The notes under the pieces: generated by a model
Seen by the model: the letters and a program-made list of their open reading frames with translations, nothing else
Database searches by the model: none
What the model was told of the DNA's origin: nothing
From: Pannonibacter indicus
Lineage (GTDB): Bacteria > Pseudomonadota > Alphaproteobacteria > Rhizobiales > Stappiaceae
Direction of reading: 5' to 3'
Length of the DNA stretch: 64,000 nucleotides
Assembly (NCBI RefSeq): GCF_001418225.1
Contig: NZ_LIPT01000001.1
Span: forward strand, 62,001 to 126,000
Shown here: positions 46,363-57,896 of the stretch, piece by piece
Position numbering within the stretch: position 1 is the first letter of the stretch
Layout: every line of letters starts with the position of its first letter
Translations under genes and position numbers: made by a program

Positions 46363-49300
46363 ATGGCAAATCCCCCGAAGGTGAAAGACCCGGCGGAAGC
46401 GGCACTGTCGGCAGTGGAAGAGGCGCTGAAGCTCGACTTCGGCGGCCCCGCAACGGCAGCAGGCAGCGAAGACGGGGCCCGTGCGGCCCTTGGCGAAGCG
46501 GCACGCGCGGAAAGACCGGGCGGCGGATCTGCTGATGCAGCAGACAGCACGGCGTCCAGCGAAGGGCGCCGGGGCCGGGGACGCGGCGGACGCCCGCCTG
46601 CGGCCAATGACGACCGCCGCACCATCGGCAACCTGATCTTCGCCCTGCAGCGCCGGCCGTCGGCTGCCCCCTTCTGGGTGGCGCTGGTGCTGAGCGTGGT
46701 CTGGGGCGTCATCGGGTCGATCCTCACCATCTCCAGCTTCGGCACGCAGATCGAAGCCCTGTCCAGCGGCGCGGGCCTTTCCGCAGCCCCCGGACTGGTG
46801 CTTGCCGGCGTTGCCATCGCCGTACCGGTCCTGTTCTTCTGGGTCATGGCCATGATGATCTGGCGTGCGCAGGAAATGCGCATCGTCGCCCGTGGCATGA
46901 CGGAAGTGGCCCTGCGCCTCGCAGAGCCGGAAGACATGGCCAAGGAATCGGTTCTGTCGGTCGGTCAGGCCATCCGCCGCGAAGTCGCTGCGATGGGCGA
47001 CGGCATTGAGCGGGCCATTGCCCGCGCCAGCGAGCTGGAAGTCCTCGTCCATAACGAAGTCTCCTCGCTCGAGCGCTCCTACAACGACAATGAGCTGAAG
47101 ATCCGCGCCCTCATCGAGGAACTGGTCAGCCAGCGCGAGGCCATCCTCGCCAATGCCGACCGGGTGCGCGATTCCATTTCCGGCGCTCACGAGAGCTTTG
47201 CCGGCCAGCTGTCCGCCACATCGGAAGAAATCGCCCGCACGGTCGAGACGGCCACCTCCCGTCTGGTGAGCGCCGTGGAAGACCGCATCAACGAGCTGAC
47301 CAGCTCCGTCGACAGCCGCATCGACGCGCTCAGCTCCTCGCTCAATGCCTCCGGTTCCGAACTGGTCGACGCCCTCACCGACCGCGCCGGGGACTATGTG
47401 GCCCGCCTCACCTCTTCGGGCAGCGAACTGGTCGACAACCTGTCGCGCACCGGCAACGACATGTGGGAGACGCTGACCACCCGCGGCAAGGAGGTCAACG
47501 ACCGCTTTGCCGAGACGGCCAGAAACTTCGTCGAGACGCTGGATGTGCGCGGCGGCGAAATCACCACCACCCTCACCCTGCGCACGCAGGAATTCACCGA
47601 GGCGCTGGAGCGCACCGGTAATTCCGTCGGCGAGACCATTGCCCTGCGTGGTGACGAGATCAACGCAACCCTGTCCCTCACCTCGGGCCGCCTGATCGAC
47701 ACCATCTCCGCCCGCACCGAGGAGCTGATCACCACCGTCGACACCCGCGTATCGCAGCTGGATGCTTCGCTGAGCGACACCGGCGAGCGTGTGGTCAGCA
47801 GCATCACCGAGCGTGGCCAGGCCGTTACCGACGCCATCTCCATCAAGGGCGCCGAGATCGTCGAAACCCTCGCAGAGCGCAGCTCCGAGGTCGCCGAGAT
47901 CCTGCGCGGCACCGGCGAGTCCATCGTTGTGGACCTGTCCCTGCGCGGCGGCGAAATCGCCTCCAAGCTCGATGCAACCTCCTCCAGCCTCGCCGAGACC
48001 ATCACCGGCCGCGGCGGCGATCTGGCGGACCGCCTTGGCTCCATCAGCGAGCGCATCGAGACGGCCATCACCGTGCATGGCGCCGAACTCGACACCCGTC
48101 TTGGCGCACGCGGCACCGAAATGGCCCTGCTCATCGAGAGCCAGACCATCGGCTTCCGCGAGACGCTGCAGGCAGCTTCCTCGGAAATCTCCAGCTCGCT
48201 CGGCCAGCGCACAACGGAACTTGCCCAGAAGCTGGCCGAAACCGGCACCGAACTCGCACGCCTCATCGGCACCCGCGGCGAGCGCGTCAGCGCCGACATC
48301 AGCTCCGTCGGCGACCGCATCGCCGAGACCATGGAACTGCGCGGCCAGGCCCTGCAGGAAGGTCTTGCAGCCCACCTCACCGAGCTGGAAAAGATCGTCA
48401 CCGAGCGCGGTTCGCAGCTGGTCGAAAGCTTCGACAGCCGTTCCACCGTGTTGGCGCAGACGCTCGACAGCCGTCTGGAAACCCTCGACCAGACCTTCGA
48501 GCACCGCGTTGGCGGGCTCGATCTGGCACTCGACAGCCGCATCAGCCGCATCGACCAGACCTTCGACGCACGCATCGGCAGGCTGGAGACGACCCTCAGC
48601 GACAACATCAACCGCTTTGACCAGACCTTCGAAGCCCGGGCCAGCAGCCTTGACGCTGCCCTCGACAGCCGCCTTGGCCGTCTGGACCAGACCTTCGACA
48701 GCCGCATCACCACGCTGGACACGGCGCTGGGTGACAGCATCACCCGTCTGGACCAGACCTTCGAAATCCGCGCCAGCGGCCTTGATGCCTCGCTCGACAG
48801 CCGCATCAACAGCCTGGATCTAACGCTGGAGCAGCGCACGGCTGCCTTCGAGGCAGCGCTGGAAACCCGCACGGTCATGCTGTCCGACGCGATCAGCACC
48901 CGCACGGAACTGCTCAGCGAAACGCTGGAACAGAAGTCGCGCACCATTGCCGACGTTCTGGCCGACCGCTCCGATGCGATCACCTTCGAGCTGGCACGGC
49001 GCGTGGAAACGGCTGGCGAATCCCTCGCCGACAAGGCCGACACCGTGGGCCGCCTCATCGGCGAGCGCGTGGACCAGGCCGCCGAAGCCATCTCCGAGAA
49101 GGCCGATCATCTCGCCCAGAGCATGATTGCCGGCACCGAGCGGATCGACCAGACCCTCGACAGCCGCGCCCGCCAGATCAGCGAAACCCTGATTGCCCGC
49201 ACCCGCGAAATCGCCAAGGCCTTCGTCGATGGCCAGACCGAGATGGCGCAGGCACTCGACAGCCGCCTGGACGAGGCAGGCTCCGTCCTGGCCCGCCAGA

Positions 49301-52062
49301 GCGCGGAACTGACCGAGTCCCTCTCCGAGCGGATTGCGGAAATCAACGTGTCGCTGGGCGCCAAGGTGTTCGAAGTGGCAGAAACCCTCGACAGCCGCGC
49401 CAGCCAGCTGGAATCGGTGCTCACCGACCGCCTGTCCTCCATCACCGGCACCCTGTCGTCGGAGACCGAGCGCGCCCGTCTGGTTCTGACCGAAGCCATG
49501 CAGGATGCCACCTCGACGCTAAGCGGCGAGAGCACCCGTGTCCGCGAGATGGTGCTCGACGCCGTCACGCAGGCCGCTTCCGCTCTCTCCGAAGAGCGCA
49601 GCCGCACCGTCGAGACGGTCAGCACGACCTTCTCCGACGTCACCGGCAAGCTTTCGGGTGAAGGCGACCGCCTGCGCCAGCTGGTGCTGGGCGCCGTGGG
49701 CGAGGCACGCGGCGTGCTGGTGGGCGAAAGCCAGAAGGCAGCCGAAACCGTTACCAGCGCAATGGCACTGGCCACCGGTTCTCTGTCGGGCGAAGGCGAA
49801 CGCATCCGTGACATGGTTCTGACCGCAGTGGGCGAAGTGCGCGGTGTGCTGGAAGGCGAAAGCCAGAAGGCAGCCGAGAGCGTCACCGGCGCAATGACCG
49901 CTGCCACTGGCGCTCTCTCCGGCGAAGGCGAGCGCATCCGCAACATGGTGCTCAGCGCCGTTGCAGAAGCGGCCCGTTCCATGGCCGTGGAAAGCGAGAA
50001 GGCCCGCACGCTCTACGTCAGCACACTGGCCGAATTCTCCGGTTCGCTCACCGGCGAAAGCGACAAGGTGCGCGGCGATCTCGCCCGCACGATTGCGGAA
50101 ATCTCCGGCAACCTCAACGCCGAGAGCGAGCATGCCCGCGTCACCCTCACCCGCACCGTGGAAGAGATGCGCAATCTCATCTCCGGCGAGGCGGATTCGG
50201 TGCGCAGCCGCGTCAGCGGCGCCGTGCAGCAGGCCGCCGAGCTGCTGTCGCAGCGCGGCCATGCCGTTGCACAGGAAATGCTCGAAAAGGCTGCGGCCCT
50301 CAACGAGGCCTTCTCCTCGCAGAGCGCCGAGTTCAGCAAGCTCGTGGGTGAGGACGGCAACCATCTGGTCGCCGCGATCGAAACCCGCGCCAATGAACTC
50401 ACCAGCCGAGTGTCCGAGATCCACCGCGCCATCCTCGACGCCATCTCCGTCAAGGGCCGCGATGTCACCGAGAGCTTCGCACAGCGCGGCCTCGAGGCGA
50501 CCCGTTCGCTGGTGGAAGCAGGCGACCGCATCCTCAACGGCCTCGACGAGCGCAGCAACCGTGCCGTCCACGTGCTGGAAGAGACCAAGCTGCGCCTGGA
50601 AGCCGACGTTTCGGCCATCCTGGACCGCCTCGACCAGTCGAACAGCATGCTGCATCAGGTGATGGCCGATGCCGGGCAGAACCTGTCGGACGTGGAAACG
50701 AACCTGGCCCGCCGCGCCAGCGAGTTCCGCTCCGCCGTGGACCGTGCCGTCGCAGAGACCAGCTCCTCCACCAGCCTCATCGATGGTCAGGTCGGCGCGC
50801 TGCGGGATATCTCGGCCACGGTTCTGGCCGACATCAAGGCCCTGTCGACCCGCTTCGACCAGCAAAGCCAGGATCTCATCAGCGCAGCCCGTCACCTCGA
50901 GGAGACGAACCGTCTGGTCGAGGGCCGTGTGGCCGAGCGCAAGACCGCCATTGAACAGGTGGCCGACACGCTGCTGGCCAAGACCGAAACGGTCGACACG
51001 CTGATGCGCACCTTCACGAGCACGCTGACGGAAACGCTGGACTCGGCCGATGACCGGGCCCGCGAAGCCGCCGCCATGCTCTCGGCCGCTGCCGAAGCCG
51101 CCTCGCGTCAGGTGGCCGAGCAGTTCGAATCCATGCGCCTGACCGCAGGCATGGAAGGTCAGCGCGCCCGCGATGCCATCCGCGCCGTGCAGGACGAGAT
51201 CATGAAGGAAATGAGCCGCACCGTAACGGAAGCGCAGGAGCGGTTCGGTGAAGCGGCAAACCGCATGCGTGACGTTGCCCGCGAGGTCCATCGCGAGCTG
51301 GAAGCAACCCGTCAGGAGCTGAAGCAGGGCGTTCTCAACCTGCCGGAAGAGGCGGAGGAATCTTCTGCCGCCCTGCGCAAGGTCGTCAACGAGCAGATCC
51401 GCGCACTCAGCGAGCTTTCAGACATCGTTGCCCGCCAGTCCAACGCGCTGGATATCTCCCGCCCGCAAGAGCGTGCCGTTGCAGCCAGCGCAGCCCCGGC
51501 TGCCAGCTACAGCGCCTCGAGCCGTCCGGCCGCTCCTGCCCCGCGCAGCGAGCCCGAACCGCGGCCCGAGCAGCGCATCGCCGCAACCCGGCGCCCGGCA
51601 GCAGCCCCTGCTCCCGAGCAGACGCCGGAAGCCGGAAGCGGCAAGGGCTGGGTAAGCGATCTGCTGCGCCGCGCCTCGCGTGACGAGGATGGCGGCAAGG
51701 CTACCCGCACGCCGCTGCACATGGTCGAAAGCCTGAACTCGCTGTCCATGGACATCGCCCGGGCCATCGACCATGAGACCTTCATCGACCTGTGGGACCG
51801 CTACAAGCGCGGTGAACGGCATGTCTTCACGCGCCGTCTCTACACTCTGCAGGGTCAGCAGACCTTTGATGAGATCCGCCAGAAATACGGCCGCGATCCG
51901 GAATTCCGCACGGCGGTTGACCGGTACATCGCCGATTTCGAACAGCTCCTCACCCAGGTCTCGCGCAATGACCGTGACAACATGCTGGGTCAGACCTATC
52001 TGACCTCGGACACGGGCAAGGTCTACACAATGCTGGCCCACGCCAGCGGCCGTCTGGACTGA
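46363..52062 (+). CDS. Giant apolipoprotein-like polar protein (GPR/RgsE type)
   Basis: Membrane-anchored coiled-coil protein of 1899 residues. It resembles the Growth Pole Ring protein of Agrobacterium and RgsE of Sinorhizobium, which form a ring at the growing pole and are needed for rod shape. An Ala/Glu-rich head is followed by two membrane helices (about 104-126 and 143-167). From residue 339 to 1416, 98 11-residue units run without a phase break (examples DSRLGRLDQTF, DSRITTLDTAL); residues 1098-1229 include three near-identical 44-residue blocks. A Pro/Ala linker then leads to a globular end with WVSDLLRRASRDEDGGKATR and DLWDRYKRGERHVFTRRLYT. The frame is open upstream to 45997; the ATG at 46363 follows GAGG. 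A strong terminator follows. Confidence 0.85.
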   Translation: MANPPKVKDPAEAALSAVEEALKLDFGGPATAAGSEDGARAALGEAARAERPGGGSADAADSTASSEGRRGRGRGGRPPAANDDRRTIGNLIFALQRRPSAAPFWVALVLSVVWGVIGSILTISSFGTQIEALSSGAGLSAAPGLVLAGVAIAVPVLFFWVMAMMIWRAQEMRIVARGMTEVALRLAEPEDMAKESVLSVGQAIRREVAAMGDGIERAIARASELEVLVHNEVSSLERSYNDNELKIRALIEELVSQREAILANADRVRDSISGAHESFAGQLSATSEEIARTVETATSRLVSAVEDRINELTSSVDSRIDALSSSLNASGSELVDALTDRAGDYVARLTSSGSELVDNLSRTGNDMWETLTTRGKEVNDRFAETARNFVETLDVRGGEITTTLTLRTQEFTEALERTGNSVGETIALRGDEINATLSLTSGRLIDTISARTEELITTVDTRVSQLDASLSDTGERVVSSITERGQAVTDAISIKGAEIVETLAERSSEVAEILRGTGESIVVDLSLRGGEIASKLDATSSSLAETITGRGGDLADRLGSISERIETAITVHGAELDTRLGARGTEMALLIESQTIGFRETLQAASSEISSSLGQRTTELAQKLAETGTELARLIGTRGERVSADISSVGDRIAETMELRGQALQEGLAAHLTELEKIVTERGSQLVESFDSRSTVLAQTLDSRLETLDQTFEHRVGGLDLALDSRISRIDQTFDARIGRLETTLSDNINRFDQTFEARASSLDAALDSRLGRLDQTFDSRITTLDTALGDSITRLDQTFEIRASGLDASLDSRINSLDLTLEQRTAAFEAALETRTVMLSDAISTRTELLSETLEQKSRTIADVLADRSDAITFELARRVETAGESLADKADTVGRLIGERVDQAAEAISEKADHLAQSMIAGTERIDQTLDSRARQISETLIARTREIAKAFVDGQTEMAQALDSRLDEAGSVLARQSAELTESLSERIAEINVSLGAKVFEVAETLDSRASQLESVLTDRLSSITGTLSSETERARLVLTEAMQDATSTLSGESTRVREMVLDAVTQAASALSEERSRTVETVSTTFSDVTGKLSGEGDRLRQLVLGAVGEARGVLVGESQKAAETVTSAMALATGSLSGEGERIRDMVLTAVGEVRGVLEGESQKAAESVTGAMTAATGALSGEGERIRNMVLSAVAEAARSMAVESEKARTLYVSTLAEFSGSLTGESDKVRGDLARTIAEISGNLNAESEHARVTLTRTVEEMRNLISGEADSVRSRVSGAVQQAAELLSQRGHAVAQEMLEKAAALNEAFSSQSAEFSKLVGEDGNHLVAAIETRANELTSRVSEIHRAILDAISVKGRDVTESFAQRGLEATRSLVEAGDRILNGLDERSNRAVHVLEETKLRLEADVSAILDRLDQSNSMLHQVMADAGQNLSDVETNLARRASEFRSAVDRAVAETSSSTSLIDGQVGALRDISATVLADIKALSTRFDQQSQDLISAARHLEETNRLVEGRVAERKTAIEQVADTLLAKTETVDTLMRTFTSTLTETLDSADDRAREAAAMLSAAAEAASRQVAEQFESMRLTAGMEGQRARDAIRAVQDEIMKEMSRTVTEAQERFGEAANRMRDVAREVHRELEATRQELKQGVLNLPEEAEESSAALRKVVNEQIRALSELSDIVARQSNALDISRPQERAVAASAAPAASYSASSRPAAPAPRSEPEPRPEQRIAATRRPAAAPAPEQTPEAGSGKGWVSDLLRRASRDEDGGKATRTPLHMVESLNSLSMDIARAIDHETFIDLWDRYKRGERHVFTRRLYTLQGQQTFDEIRQKYGRDPEFRTAVDRYIADFEQLLTQVSRNDRDNMLGQTYLTSDTGKVYTMLAHASGRLD

Positions 52063-52421: not shown

Positions 52422-53036
52422 TCAGACCTTGGAAATGACCCAGGCCGCCAGTTCGGTGAAGACCTGCCCTGCGGCGGTGTTCATGGCGCGCACGGCCTGA
52501 TCGGCAGACTGGCCGCCGGAGGCCACCTCGGCGCGGAAGACCGTGCTGTCCACAGTCCGGCCGTTGCGGTCGTTCACGAGCCGGGCTGCAATCTCAACGA
52601 CACCGCGCGCATTGCCGGCGATATTCAGTTCAAAGGAGCGGATCTCGGTCTGGAGCTGATAATCGATCAGCAGGCCATCCCCCGGCATGCCGACTCCGCG
52701 CAGGCGGCGGGTGTTCTCCAGCGTCCGGACGATTCCGGTCTGCACCACATTGCCAAGCTGATCGGCCCAGGCGGCCTGCGGGAAATAGGTGTAGACCGGC
52801 CCCTGCTGCACCACCGCAATGTTGCTGCTGTCGAGCGCCTGCAGCGCCTTCGGCACGGCGACCAGCACCTGCACGGGCTTGCGTGCCCCTTCTGCAGTGG
52901 CAGCCGCCGGAGCCTCAATGCCATAGAGCGCATTGGGAGCTGTGGAGGCACAGGCAGACAGGCCGACCGCCAGGGTTCCAAGCGCCAGAATCGTCAATGT
53001 GCGGCGGCGGTTGATCAGCGTTACAGCGTCGGTCAT
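52422..53036 (-). CDS. ABC-transport auxiliary lipoprotein (PqiC/MlaABC-associated type)
   Basis: A 204-residue lipoprotein with signal sequence and lipobox LSAC (Cys29). The mature part has a short alpha/beta fold: VQVLVAVPKALQALDSSNIA, a YTYFPQAAWADQLGNVV block, TGIVRTLENTRRLRGVGMPG, and a late ARLVNDRNGRTVDSTVF. This matches the ABC-type transport auxiliary lipoprotein family (PF03886-like), found behind MCE operons. It is last in the leftward Mla-type operon, 115 bases after the MCE gene, and probably links the MCE protein to the outer membrane. Confidence 0.85.
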   Translation of the reverse strand: MTDAVTLINRRRTLTILALGTLAVGLSACASTAPNALYGIEAPAAATAEGARKPVQVLVAVPKALQALDSSNIAVVQQGPVYTYFPQAAWADQLGNVVQTGIVRTLENTRRLRGVGMPGDGLLIDYQLQTEIRSFELNIAGNARGVVEIAARLVNDRNGRTVDSTVFRAEVASGGQSADQAVRAMNTAAGQVFTELAAWVISKV

Positions 53037-53151
53037 GCCCTTCGTCTTCCCGGCCTGTGCCGTTCCTTGCCAGGCCGCAGCGCCTCAACGCCATGGCCCT
53101 GTTTCGTCAGTGCTTCATCGGTCAAACTGCCCGGAAAGGCAGAAGCCGGTC

Positions 53152-54804
53152 TCAGCGCCGCTGCCCGCCATTGAACCGCGGCACATCGTCCCCGCCAAAG
53201 ATCACCCGGTTCGGCGCACGGTCGAAGTTCTCGATCGCCCGCTGCAGGGTAATGAAGGTGCGGTTGACCTGCCCCAGCGTCGCGGCCAGATCAGCCGATC
53301 CCTGTGAAGCGAACCTCGACAGGCCGTCGGCGATACCGCCCGCACGGCTTTCAAAGGCCTCCGCCACCTTGCGGATGGCCGTCATCGCCTTCGTCGCCTC
53401 GGTGATCAGGCCTTCGCCGTCGCCATCTACCATGGTGTTCACCTTGTCCATCAACACGTCCAGTTTCTGAGACGAGGTGTTGAGGTTGGCGGCAACCGTC
53501 TTTGCGTCCGTGATGATCTGGTTCACATCGTCTGTGCGAGCGGAAAGGTCAGCCGACATGCGCTCCACATTGGTGGCTGCGTTGCGCGCCGAGTCGATCG
53601 TCTCGGCAATGGCGTTGCCCTGCCCGGCAATGGCGCTGACCGTCCGGTCCACCGCATCGACAATCGAGGATATGCGCGCCGGATCGATCGCGGCGACCAC
53701 CTCACCGGTGTCATCTACCGTCTTGATCAGGCCGGTGAGCAGCCTTTGCGCATCCCCGATCAGCGTGACAATATCGTCCTCGCGGCTGCGGATCGTCTGG
53801 GCCAGCTGATCCACGTGCGCCATCGTGCTGGTCGTGCTGCGGATCAGGCCGTCAATGTCGGACGAGCGGTTGGAAAGCACATCGCCAAGGCTCGCAGCGC
53901 CTGCCACCACGCGCTGCACCTCTTCCGGCTTCACCGCATTGACCACCGCCTCGACCTGCGTGAGCGAGGAGTTCATGCGCTCGGTAAACTGCTGCACATT
54001 GGCCACGGCGGAGCTGGCATCGCCCATGATCTGGCGGATTTCGGGCCCTGCGGCCTTCAGGGAATCCGAGAACTCGGTGATATTGACCACAAGTTCCTCA
54101 ACCTTGTCATCCGGCACGGCAGCCAGGATACGTTCCCCCTGCATCACCAGCCCTTCCAGCTTGCCGGACAGCGAACTGAAGGCAACCGTGGCCTCGCCGA
54201 GGGAGGCCATGAAGTCCTTCACGCCATCGGAGTTCTGGGCGAGCGCAGCAGAGAATGTCTCGACATTGCGCATGGTGGAGGCGATGACCGGCTGGTTTTC
54301 GCGCAGCACATCGTTGATGGCTTCCAGCGTGGTATCCGCCTTGCGCAACACATCGCGGCCATTCTCCAGCACGTCATCGAAGAAGGAGCGGTCGGCATAG
54401 ATCACCGGTTCCTTGCCTTCGTTCAGCGCATCCAGAAGAAGGCCGGTACCGGTCGTGCCCCCCTTCAGATCCACATAGGCAACGCCGGTGAGGCCCTGGA
54501 AGCCGAGCGTGGCCCGCACGTCCTTGCGCAAGGGGGCGTTGGGAGAGACACGGATTGTGGCAATGACGATGCGCGGATCGCGCGGATCAAAGTCGAGTGC
54601 CGAAACATCGCCGACCTTGATGCCGTTGAACAGCACCTGCCCGCCGACGGGCAAGCCGGTCACGGCGCCCGGGAAGACAACCTTCACATTGATGCTCTTG
54701 CCGGAATCGGCAGCAGCCGCCAGCCAATAGATGAACAGGAATGCCGCGACGAGAATGCCGAGAACGAAGCCGCCGATCATCACGTAATTTGCACGGGTTT
54801 CCAT
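53152..54804 (-). CDS. MCE-domain lipid transport protein (MlaD type)
   Basis: Periplasmic, inner-membrane-anchored lipid-binding subunit of an Mla-like ABC system. The 550-residue product has one N-terminal membrane helix (about 7-30, VMIGGFVLGILVAAFLFIYW), an MCE domain (about 40-120: VVFPGAVTGLPVGGQVLFNG, VGDVSALDFDPRDPR, GLTGVAYVDLKGG), and a long helical tail (about 140-525) rich in amphipathic helices. It is longer than MlaD of E. coli (183), closer to the long MCE proteins of other alphaproteobacteria. It follows the ATPase gene by 10 bases. Confidence 0.93.
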   Translation of the reverse strand: METRANYVMIGGFVLGILVAAFLFIYWLAAAADSGKSINVKVVFPGAVTGLPVGGQVLFNGIKVGDVSALDFDPRDPRIVIATIRVSPNAPLRKDVRATLGFQGLTGVAYVDLKGGTTGTGLLLDALNEGKEPVIYADRSFFDDVLENGRDVLRKADTTLEAINDVLRENQPVIASTMRNVETFSAALAQNSDGVKDFMASLGEATVAFSSLSGKLEGLVMQGERILAAVPDDKVEELVVNITEFSDSLKAAGPEIRQIMGDASSAVANVQQFTERMNSSLTQVEAVVNAVKPEEVQRVVAGAASLGDVLSNRSSDIDGLIRSTTSTMAHVDQLAQTIRSREDDIVTLIGDAQRLLTGLIKTVDDTGEVVAAIDPARISSIVDAVDRTVSAIAGQGNAIAETIDSARNAATNVERMSADLSARTDDVNQIITDAKTVAANLNTSSQKLDVLMDKVNTMVDGDGEGLITEATKAMTAIRKVAEAFESRAGGIADGLSRFASQGSADLAATLGQVNRTFITLQRAIENFDRAPNRVIFGGDDVPRFNGGQRR

Positions 54805-54814
54805 CAGTTGCCTT

Positions 54815-55618
54815 TCAAACCCTGCGCAGGGCGCGTTCGCCCCGGAAGTAGGATTTCACCCAAGGGTGCTCGCTCTTCATCATTTCATCCACTGTGCCGG
54901 CCAGCAGAACCCGCTTCTCGCCCAGAACCGCAATACGGTCGCAGATCGAGTGCAGGCTATCAAGGTCATGTGTCACCATATAAACGGTCAGACCCAGGGT
55001 TTCACGCAACTTGGCGATCAAACCGTCGAAGGCCGCAGCGCCAATCGGATCAAGGCCCGAGGTCGGCTCGTCGAGAAACACCAGATCGGGATCCAGTGAC
55101 AGCGCACGGGCAAGGCTGGCACGCTTGACCATGCCGCCGGAGAGCTCGGATGGATATTTATCCGCCGCATCGCGCGGGAGGCCCACCAGCTCCAGCTTCA
55201 GAAAGGCGAATTCATCCATCAGACGCTGCGAAAGCCCGAGATATTCGCGCATCGGCACCTGGATGTTCTGCTTGACCGTCAGCGAGGAGAACAGCGCGCC
55301 CTGCTGGAACAGGACGCCCCAGCGCCGCTCGATCCAGTTGCGCTCGTCCGGAGTGGCGCTGTCGAGGTCCTGGCCGAACACGGAAATTCGGCCAGCGCGC
55401 CGCGGGGTAAGGCCGAGAATGGCCCGCATCAGCACCGACTTGCCGGTCCCCGACCCGCCGACGAACCCCAGCACCTCACCCCGGTAGACATCAAGATCCA
55501 GCTTGTCGAGGATGATCTTCTTGCCGAAGCCGACCGTAACGCCGCGCGCAGACAAGAGAACCTCCCGCTCCCGCGCAGGCTGAACCGTCTCATCCAGGGC
55601 GTCAGCAGTGCTCATCAT
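54815..55618 (-). CDS. ABC transporter ATPase (MlaF type)
   Basis: ATPase of the lipid transport system. The 267 residues have Walker A GGSGTGKS (about 54-61), Q-loop in LFQQGALFSSLTVKQNIQVP, ABC signature ELSGGMVKRASLARALSLDP, Walker B LVFLDEPTSGLDP, and the H-loop THDL. The LFQQGALFSSLTV and GLDPIGA blocks are diagnostic for the MlaF/Ttg2A group. It stands between the permease and MCE genes with gaps of five and ten bases. Confidence 0.95.
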   Translation of the reverse strand: MMSTADALDETVQPAREREVLLSARGVTVGFGKKIILDKLDLDVYRGEVLGFVGGSGTGKSVLMRAILGLTPRRAGRISVFGQDLDSATPDERNWIERRWGVLFQQGALFSSLTVKQNIQVPMREYLGLSQRLMDEFAFLKLELVGLPRDAADKYPSELSGGMVKRASLARALSLDPDLVFLDEPTSGLDPIGAAAFDGLIAKLRETLGLTVYMVTHDLDSLHSICDRIAVLGEKRVLLAGTVDEMMKSEHPWVKSYFRGERALRRV

Positions 55619-55623
55619 GGCCC

Positions 55624-56772
55624 TTATACGTTGATGGCTGCAAAGAAGATGGCAAAAAGACCATCAACGACGATGACAAGGAAGATTGCCTTCACGACAG
55701 ACATCGTGGTGTGGCGGCCAAGGGAGTCGGCCGAACCGCCAACCTTCAGACCTTCCACGCAGGCAATGAGGCCGATGATCAAAGCCATGAACGGAGCCTT
55801 GACCATGCCAACGATGAAGGTCTGAACGGTGATCGCCTCTTCCAGACGGCTCAGGTAGGCCGCTGGCGGAATCTCCAGATACCACCAGGTCACGAGCCCG
55901 GAGCCAGTCAGTGCAGCCAGATCGGAGACGAAGGTCAGCACGGGCATGGCCGCCATCAGCGCCAGAAGACGCGGGAGGATGAGCACCTCCGTCACATTGA
56001 GGCCAATGACGTGGAGAGCGTCGATTTCCTCCTGCATTTTCATGGATCCGAGTTCTGCCGTAAAGGCGGAGCCCGAACGGCCGGCCACCATGATGGCAGT
56101 CAGCAGAACGCCGATCTCGCGCAGGACCAGCACACCAGCCAGATCGACGACAAAGAGGTCTGCGCCAAATTGCCGCAAATAGAACCCGCCCTGCTGGGCG
56201 ATGATGACACCGATCAGGAAGCTCATCAGCGCAACAATCGGCACGGCCCCGATGCAGGACTTTTCGAATTGCACCGCAATGGCAATGCCGCGCAGGCGCT
56301 TGGGCTGAAACAGAACCGTGGCGACAACCGTGCTGAGCGAGCCCAGGATGTGCAGCATGGCTATGAAATCCTGCCATGCCTCAACCACCGACTTGCCGGT
56401 CGCTTCCATCAGATTGATCAGCATGCCCTGCCGCGGCTCATGGCTGGGCGGTGGCGGATGGTGGGCATCCACCTCGTTCAAGAGGATCTGCTGCTCCGGC
56501 CGCAGCCCTTCGACGCGCACACGCGTGCCTGAAAACTCGATACGCCCGCGCAGCCTGTGAATCAGCCAGGCGCCCGCCGTGTCCAGAGCGCGCAGGCCGG
56601 ACAAATCCAGCACGATCTCGACCTGCCCCTGCTCGCTGACAAGACCTTCCACGATCGCCTCGGCTTCCATGGCCGTGCGGATCACCCAGTCACCGGACAG
56701 GGCAACGGTCACGGCCTGTCCGTCATGGGTGGCCGTGCATCTGGGAGCGAGCAGTTGAACCTGTAATGTCAT
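55624..56772 (-). CDS. STAS-MlaE fusion permease
   Basis: Permease of the Mla-like system with an N-terminal STAS domain. The 382-residue product starts with a STAS-like part (about residues 1-95: VTVALSGDWVIRTAMEAEAI, LDLSGLRALDTAGAWLIHRL), as if MlaB were fused, then the MlaE permease domain with VPIVALMSFLIGVIIAQQGG, REIGVLLTAIMVAGRSGSAF, TAELGSMKMQEEIDALHVIG and FIVGMVKAPFMALIIGLIAC. The frame is open to 56943, but the ATG at 56772 fits the family. It is first in the leftward permease-ATPase-MCE-lipoprotein operon and divergent from dgcN. Confidence 0.92.
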   Translation of the reverse strand: MTLQVQLLAPRCTATHDGQAVTVALSGDWVIRTAMEAEAIVEGLVSEQGQVEIVLDLSGLRALDTAGAWLIHRLRGRIEFSGTRVRVEGLRPEQQILLNEVDAHHPPPPSHEPRQGMLINLMEATGKSVVEAWQDFIAMLHILGSLSTVVATVLFQPKRLRGIAIAVQFEKSCIGAVPIVALMSFLIGVIIAQQGGFYLRQFGADLFVVDLAGVLVLREIGVLLTAIMVAGRSGSAFTAELGSMKMQEEIDALHVIGLNVTEVLILPRLLALMAAMPVLTFVSDLAALTGSGLVTWWYLEIPPAAYLSRLEEAITVQTFIVGMVKAPFMALIIGLIACVEGLKVGGSADSLGRHTTMSVVKAIFLVIVVDGLFAIFFAAINV

Positions 56773-56882
56773 GCGTGCTGACGCAACCCCTTGCCGCTTC
56801 GAAGGACTAACCCCTATACCTGAGAGTAAGGCAGGCCGTCCAGACGCGCGGCCGGTGACAATCAATAGAGGCGGATCACATA

Positions 56883-57896
56883 ATGGATATTGCAAACCCC
56901 TATCTGATGTTCCTGGGCGACGTTCCGGATGCGCTGGCGGCAAAGACGGCGCTCGGTGTGGTCGACTGGCGCCGGGACTGGTGCATCGGGCAGAATCGCC
57001 TGCCGGGCTGCCAGGCGGATGCCGGCCTGCCGGATATGACGATCCCGGCCGCGGCGAAAGCCGGCGCCAGGACCATGATCGTCGGCGCCGTGAATGCAGG
57101 CGGGCGCCTGCCGGATCACTGGGTTGCCTCCATCGTGGAAGCGCTTGACGCGGGGCTGGATGTGGCCAGCGGGCTGCATGTGCGCCTCGGGTCGATTCCG
57201 GCGATCAAGGAAGCGGCAGAGCGCAATGGCCGCCAGTTGTTCGACGTGCGCCACTCCGACATGACCTTTGCCACCGGCAAGGGCTCCAAGCGCAGCGGCA
57301 AGCGCATCCTCACCGTCGGCACCGATTGCTCGGTCGGCAAGAAGTACACCGCCCTCGCCATGGAGCGGGACATGCGCGCCCGCGGCTATGACTGCGACTT
57401 CCGCGCCACCGGCCAGACCGGTGTGTTCATTTCGGGCCGTGGTGTTGCCATCGACGCAGTGGTGGCCGACTTCATCTCCGGCGCCGTGGAATGGATCTCT
57501 CCGGCAGCGGACGAAAACCACTGGGATGTGATCGAGGGCCAGGGCTCCCTGTTCCATCCATCCTTCTCCGGCGTGACGCTCGGCCTGCTGCACGGCGCAC
57601 AGCCCGACGCCTTCATCGTCTGCCATGAGCCGACCCGCCGCACCATGCGCGGTGTGCAGACGCCCCTGCCCTCCATTCAGGAGGTCATCGACCTGACGAT
57701 CCAATGCGGCAAGCTGACGAACCCGGATATCCGCTGCATCGGCATTGCGGTGAATACGGCTGCCCTTGGCGACGCGGAAGCACAGGCCTATCTGGCGGAG
57801 CTTTCCGCAAAGTACGGCCTGCCCGCGACCGACCCCGTGCGCTATGGCATGGCCAAGGTGGTGGACAAGGTGGCAGAAATCTACGGCGAAGCCTGA
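56883..57896 (+). CDS. dgcN: D-glutamate N-acetyltransferase DgcN (DUF1611)
   Basis: In recently described D-glutamate catabolism, DgcN acylates D-glutamate to N-acetyl-D-glutamate, which DgcA then converts. The 337 residues include an N-terminal Rossmann-like part with PYLMFLGDVPDALAAKTALG, a P-loop-like block ILTVGTDCSVGKKYTALAME (about 142-161), FRATGQTGVFISGRGVAIDA, EGQGSLFHPSFSGVTLGLLH and a C-terminal PVRYGMAKVVDKVAEI. These are the DUF1611 signatures. dgcA follows after three bases. No regulator of the pair is visible; the divergent 110-base gap to the permease holds the promoter. Confidence 0.85.
   Translation: MDIANPYLMFLGDVPDALAAKTALGVVDWRRDWCIGQNRLPGCQADAGLPDMTIPAAAKAGARTMIVGAVNAGGRLPDHWVASIVEALDAGLDVASGLHVRLGSIPAIKEAAERNGRQLFDVRHSDMTFATGKGSKRSGKRILTVGTDCSVGKKYTALAMERDMRARGYDCDFRATGQTGVFISGRGVAIDAVVADFISGAVEWISPAADENHWDVIEGQGSLFHPSFSGVTLGLLHGAQPDAFIVCHEPTRRTMRGVQTPLPSIQEVIDLTIQCGKLTNPDIRCIGIAVNTAALGDAEAQAYLAELSAKYGLPATDPVRYGMAKVVDKVAEIYGEA

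Follow-up and report, generated by a model that had tools for sequence, protein, structure and literature searches.

The window analysed here, a stretch of 64,000 nucleotides from Pannonibacter indicus, carries on its forward strand a gene for a very long protein that is built mostly of 11-residue repeats, followed by a lipid-transport operon on the opposite strand (Table 1). Two segments near the N terminus are the only hydropathy peaks of the protein (Kyte-Doolittle 19-residue mean > 1.6), and helices at residues 99-131 and 143-183 overlap them in a low-confidence AlphaFold model. At the other end lies a conserved domain with a mean column identity of 71% in a 49-sequence alignment. Modelled with AlphaFold from an alignment of the window sequence and 48 of 75 orthologues, this domain is predicted to be compact and all-helical (pLDDT 80.7, pTM 0.75), with low confidence for its first ten residues. 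A Foldseek search against the PDB found no known fold for it (124 matches at E <= 10, none at E <= 0.001, best E 0.37). The operon downstream consists of genes for a putative lipoprotein, an MlaD/MCE protein, an ATPase and an MlaE permease; the lipoprotein was called by inspection, as NCBIfam names no family for it.

Table 1. Features of the gene, its protein and the neighbouring operon, in positions of the window
Feature	Position	Strand	Remarks
gpr/rgsE-type gene	46363..52062	+	1899 aa from ATG; open frame reaches back to 45997
Two putative transmembrane segments (hydrophobic)	46657..46872	+	residues 99-127 and 136-170; Kyte-Doolittle
107 hendecads in one register, no interruption	47080..50610	+	residues 240-1416
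Tandem repeat in the DNA, 66- and 132-bp periods (two and four hendecads)	48529..48818	+	Tandem Repeats Finder
Tandem repeat in the DNA, 132-bp period (four hendecads)	49660..50003	+	Tandem Repeats Finder
Stretch without proline or array register, probably helical by sequence	50611..51342	+	residues 1417-1660; period ~3.6
Segment that is Pro/Ala-rich from about residue 1700	51343..51669	+	residues 1661-1769; proline positions, sequence
Conserved C-terminal domain, all-helical in the model	51670..52062	+	residues 1770-1899; alignment, AlphaFold
MCE/Mla-type operon	52422..56943	-	downstream of and convergent with the gpr gene

The original prediction described about 98 consecutive repeats from residue 339 onwards in a single phase, and this slightly understates the array. 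Position 11 of the repeat is L, I, V, F, M or Y in 98 of 98 units between residues 339 and 1416, and nine further units upstream also carry a hydrophobic residue there, which moves the beginning of the register to residue 240 and gives a run of 107 units. A hydrophobic residue (LIVMFWY) occupies position 7 in 82% of units; the first two of the 107 lack one. The landmark units that had been named, at residues 339, 966, 1098 and 1406, do share one 11-residue register. Over residues 339-1416, the dominant Fourier period of the hydrophobic residues is 3.668 with a power of 134 (11/3 = 3.667), and 2000 shuffles of the same residues gave a longest stride-11 run of 4.9 on average and 11 at most, versus the 98 observed. 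Local phase was steady in overlapping 88-residue segments starting from about residue 247 to 1336 and drifted in later ones, the drift setting in at about residue 1400. A profile-based phase-tracking model returned a single segment, residues 258-1426, with zero shifts; hence the phase is unbroken over residues 339-1416, and frequent breaks were not found in this protein. Hydrophobic residues at positions a, d and h define a hendecad coiled coil (as set out in PMC9858780), and the array combines the 11/3 periodicity with hydrophobic positions 4, 7 and 11 that correspond to a, d and h. Position 4, which belongs to the core, holds small or aliphatic residues; 65 of the 98 units have G, S, A or T there, so it is mostly small, not strongly hydrophobic.

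At the DNA level, sequence units of 66 and 132 bp recur in tandem within the array, so the gain of units by duplication is visible. Such recent duplication, present in two stretches, could in principle have produced the register as a by-product, with a phase that is under no functional constraint. We consider this very improbable. The tandem repeats cover about 0.6 of the 3.5 kb, and Tandem Repeats Finder reports nothing else in the gene; the hydrophobic residue at position 11 is present in 107 of 107 units; and in other families, shifts of the register are largely confined to heptad-compatible classes (see below).

By its architecture, the protein is predicted to be a Stappiaceae-type GPR/RgsE, where the named proteins GPR and RgsE were compared by their published descriptions. 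The traits of that family which we found are the two N-terminal hydrophobic segments, a PF01442 match over most of the 1899 aa, and conservation throughout the order. Both the family and the polar role of its members in other species have been described before: in Agrobacterium tumefaciens, GPR assembles into a ring of 200 nm (reported in PMC8262873), RgsE sits at the growing pole in Sinorhizobium meliloti (reported in PMC7327166), and the RgsE homologue of Brucella abortus is placed at the new pole in the account of PMC9938171. A polar ring in Pannonibacter, as the original prediction proposed, would follow by analogy with these relatives. A search of the P. indicus genome found no MreB, which is in line with a polar grower. 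Two MreB_Mbl matches above the Pfam cut-off were rejected as MreB, the proteins being FtsA and DnaK.

To describe the distribution of the family we used a 120-residue part of the C-terminal domain as the only query. The domain is present in 190 of 199 genomes of Rhizobiales/Hyphomicrobiales, with one match in 189 of them and two in the remaining one (G066), and in 56 of 142 genomes of a class-wide sample. Many alphaproteobacteria outside the order also carry it, often in shorter open frames (many of 700-1400 residues), so the C-terminal domain is spread more widely than the giant protein. We kept the 80 highest-ranking of at least 588 loci; among these, Pannonibacter is the nearest named relative (97% identical in its C-terminal domain), with Stappia, Roseibium and Pseudovibrio next.

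These best 80 loci were the basis for comparing the array among relatives. Leaving out five loci at contig edges (L038, L040, L064, L065 and L069), we retained 76 sequences, namely the window and 75 loci; orthologues from Rhizobium, Pararhizobium and Xaviernesmea (L068, L056 and L075) are included, and Atu1348 and SMc00190 lie outside this sample. A closest set chosen by similarity comprises the window and L002-L037, mostly from Stappia, Roseibium, Labrenzia, Pseudovibrio and Pannonibacter and also from Breoghania and Hongsoonwoonella; the name Stappiaceae is used here for this set. Array length was measured as the distance between two landmarks, residue 200 of the window protein (after the membrane segments) and residue 1410 (the array end), and both were placed in all of the 37 closest sequences but one and in 36 of the 39 others. 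The one closest sequence without the N-terminal landmark, L021 (Stappia sp. WLB 29), has an open frame of 1504 residues, which may reflect a truncation or a sequencing error.

The landmark distance spans 1041-1701 residues in these 36 closest sequences, equivalent to about 156-255 nm of helix. Relative to the array of the window protein, the shortest is 169 residues shorter and the longest 491 residues longer, and all fall into only three classes modulo 11 (21, 14 and 1 sequences). Given this range even within the closest set, a molecular ruler of universally fixed length is unlikely, and we rejected it for the family. Among the remaining sequences the distances scatter over the classes modulo 11, with 17 of 36 in the commonest; the alignments there are less reliable, at 20-31% identity in the M block. 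To limit the influence of common descent, we compared disjoint pairs of closest orthologues drawn from 72 of the 76 sequences. Among pairs sharing at least 80% identity, array-length differences were multiples of 11 in 16 of 22 differing pairs, and any other modulus from 5 to 15 accounted for at most 5 of the 22; the six exceptions were -123, -18, 54, 94, 94 and 105. With rounded identities on the same pairs the count was 17 of 23, and at all identities 18 of 32 differences were divisible by 11 and 14 were not. Changes of a single unit (11 residues) separate L003 from L002 and L047 from L051. In the flanking stretch of residues 1450-1800, 0 of 23 differences in the same pairs were multiples of 11 (1 of 33 at all identities), a control that is weak because only 5 of the 23 differences there reach 11 residues. 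Close relatives thus gain and lose array length mostly in whole hendecads.

More distant families depart from the single register. In L002-L037, the 36 closest sequences, the longest run comprises 59-124 units, versus 11-96 (median 23) in the 39 others, whose phase breaks are frequent; Mesorhizobium, Hoeflea and others have no single register. Of 455 adjacent phase shifts recorded in the 76 sequences, 440 match, modulo 11, the insertion of a single heptad (324), of two (65) or of three (51), whereas a simulated null recovers all shift classes about evenly. These shifts were tallied per sequence rather than as independent events, some of those counted for the closest set are located beyond the array end, and the underlying profile was trained on the array of the window; the classes 7, 3 and 10 modulo 11 may also be read as -4, +3 and -1. 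We attach no probability to the tally because the shifts are not independent and the profile derives from the window array. We note that segments of about 29 residues (11+11+7) recur in Mesorhizobium-type loci, for example L048, L049, L060 and L081; with such segments, a turn would take 3.625 rather than 3.667 residues.

Two kinds of helix could account for a stripe of this length, one that packs against other helices and one that lies on lipid. The original prediction took the second view, with apolipoprotein-type 11-mers forming curved or membrane-lying helices in a ring at the growing pole. Apolipoproteins A1, A4 and E consist of 22-residue amphipathic repeats punctuated by proline, and apoA-IV carries an 11-residue amphipathic periodicity. 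An apolipoprotein-like array would lie on or wrap lipid and so bend or mark the membrane at the growing pole. A resemblance at the profile level is clear: PF01442 matches with E 1.4e-70 and 237.3 bits, against a cut-off of 90, in nine stretches; the ApoLp-III profile scores just above threshold (39.6 bits, cut-off 36.3); and human apoA-IV chains are matched weakly in sequence (E 0.0016 and 0.0026). The array is also higher in mean hydrophobicity than the apoA-IV stretch that served as the one apolipoprotein in our comparison (0.230 vs 0.118).

The remaining properties of the array differ from those of that stretch. Residues 190-1660, a total of 1471, contain zero proline, versus 4.5 per 100 in the apoA-IV stretch, so the proline-punctuated 22-residue pattern is absent between these residues. 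Lysine makes up 1.7% versus 7.5 per 100. The hydrophobic stripe is narrow, being limited to positions 4, 7 and 11 and spanning about 66 degrees of the helix, and the net charge of the array averages -1.13 per 18 residues. The hydrophobic moment is lower in the array (0.339 vs 0.426), and only 2% of its 18-residue segments exceed a lipid-binding score of 0.68, versus 17% in the apoA-IV stretch. Taken from the amino acid sequence, these indices point mostly away from lipid binding, as an indication rather than as proof, and the traits of the array seem more suitable for packing between helices than for resting on an anionic membrane. Conservation of the register alone cannot decide between the two, since an unbroken stripe would be favoured as well in a single helix that lies on a flat membrane. 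Of the earlier reading, the 11-residue phase, the resemblance at the level of PF01442 and, by analogy, the polar ring therefore stand, while the curved or membrane-lying helices are not borne out by a sequence with no proline, a narrow stripe, little lysine and a negative charge. We rate an apolipoprotein-like array as unlikely on balance. The main reason for granting it even that chance is the neighbouring lipid-transport operon, of which three or all four genes persist downstream on the opposite strand in 58 of the 73 loci with enough sequence; this conserved neighbour makes some contact of the array with lipid plausible. The authors of the GPR study likewise favour an interaction with lipid in their account (PMC8262873).

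A further question is whether the helix is extended. In the AlphaFold model of residues 95-654, built from 21 aligned sequences (the window plus 20 of 34 orthologues), the chain forms long helices that are interrupted at 353-359 (mean pLDDT 67, pTM 0.21); the model lends weak support to helicity. The long helix might fold back on itself into an intramolecular antiparallel bundle, which would make the molecule compact instead of a rod. Long stripes can pair within one chain, the low-confidence model has its break, and the GPR authors propose in PMC8262873 that GPR must fold on its own length. Weighing against such a bundle, residues 190-1660 offer no proline to make a turn, 353-359 is the only break in the modelled part, and length changes of a single 11-residue unit are awkward for a hairpin with fixed pairing. 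We judge a folded-back molecule to be unlikely, somewhat more so than a lipid-bound one.

Our best explanation, which we hold with moderate confidence, is a continuous hendecad coiled-coil rod: a version of GPR/RgsE that is anchored in the membrane, whose copies pack along their stripes and whose C-terminal domain lies at the far end. The two hydrophobic segments would anchor the N terminus, an orientation suggested by relatives. The 107 observed units would form a proline-free alpha-helix with one narrow stripe along its full length, and two or more copies may pack stripe to stripe, in register, into a right-handed coiled-coil rod. Such a rod would measure about 175 nm if fully extended (1177 residues x 0.15 nm), with the conserved C-terminal domain presented at the distal end. 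As in relatives, it may scaffold the polar growth machinery and organise the synthesis of wall and membrane. Because the stripe is kept in phase and length varies by whole units, selection appears to act on continuity of the helix rather than on a universally fixed length.

We found no description of the hendecad register and whole-unit length changes of the GPR family in our search of titles in mainly openly accessible literature, and the words "repeat", "periodic" and "amphipathic" are absent from the main text of PMC8262873. PMC9858780 refers to a survey of the protein database for hendecads, and Scy already provides an example of a long hendecad rod in polar growth. GPR/RgsE is central to the one-pole growth of a whole order, and a register that is conserved and changes mostly by whole units makes it informative to compare deletions in phase (11 or 22 residues) with deletions out of phase (21 residues). 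The coiled-coil deletions of A. tumefaciens GPR described in PMC8262873 removed 21 residues and had a strong effect. As 21 is not a multiple of 11, part of that effect might reflect breakage of the register rather than loss of a special site; a 21-residue deletion corresponds to shift class 1, which was never seen among the 455 shifts. This reading is drawn by analogy, and distant arrays mix in heptads.

The protein can be compared with four known systems. The nearest is GPR (Atu1348) and RgsE (SMc00190), which are described in PMC8262873 and PMC7327166 as giant, membrane-anchored, cytoplasmic proteins of about 2,100 aa at the growing pole. According to these accounts they have in common with the Pannonibacter protein a pair of membrane segments near the N terminus, PF01442 repeats along most of the chain and a C terminus that is important. 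The Pannonibacter protein is shorter at 1899 aa and purely hendecad for 107 units, whereas more distant families mix in heptads. ApoA-IV shares the PF01442 profile match with the array. It is a protein of 396 residues that is rich in proline in the stretch compared, in contrast to the 107 uninterrupted units without proline found here.

ZorA of the Zorya anti-phage system shares a membrane anchor and a long cytoplasmic helical tail, and the ZorA3 model of PADLOC matches residues 199-710 (E 1.1e-27). The ZorA tail is built by bundling five C termini, as described in PMC11890865. We rejected membership in ZorA: matches are confined to the tail, the NCBIfam score is 26.8 bits against a cut-off of 190, and the motor domain (MotA/ExbB/TolQ-type) is unmatched, the best stretches of the PADLOC and NCBIfam ZorA matches beginning at residue 199 or later. 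The resemblance to the ZorA tail is one of working, not of membership. Separately, the same genome encodes the C-terminal part of a ZorA1 at a contig edge (contig C22, bases 3-1445, L086; PADLOC 613.7 bits).

The closest parallel in mode of working is found in Streptomyces, among the polar and division proteins of the DivIVA/FilP group, as portrayed in PMC9858780. Scy is there a rod of more than 1000 residues made almost entirely of hendecads, and FilP and Scy are dimers with small core residues (alanine), which avoid clashes in long hendecad dimers. By this account, Scy and FilP share with the array a long hendecad rod, a role in polar growth and division, and small residues in the core. They begin with an N-terminal DivIVA-like motif, whereas the Pannonibacter protein begins with two membrane segments and had no DivIVA match in a Pfam scan at E up to 1. 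Streptomyces (with Scy) and this order might then have reached hendecad rods independently, and the number of units, tuned by whole-unit duplication, could act as a slippage-adjustable ruler that sets ring size or spacing in each species and through it cell width, an extension to which we give little credence at present. The likeness to Scy and FilP itself is probably one of working, convergent rather than a sign of membership.
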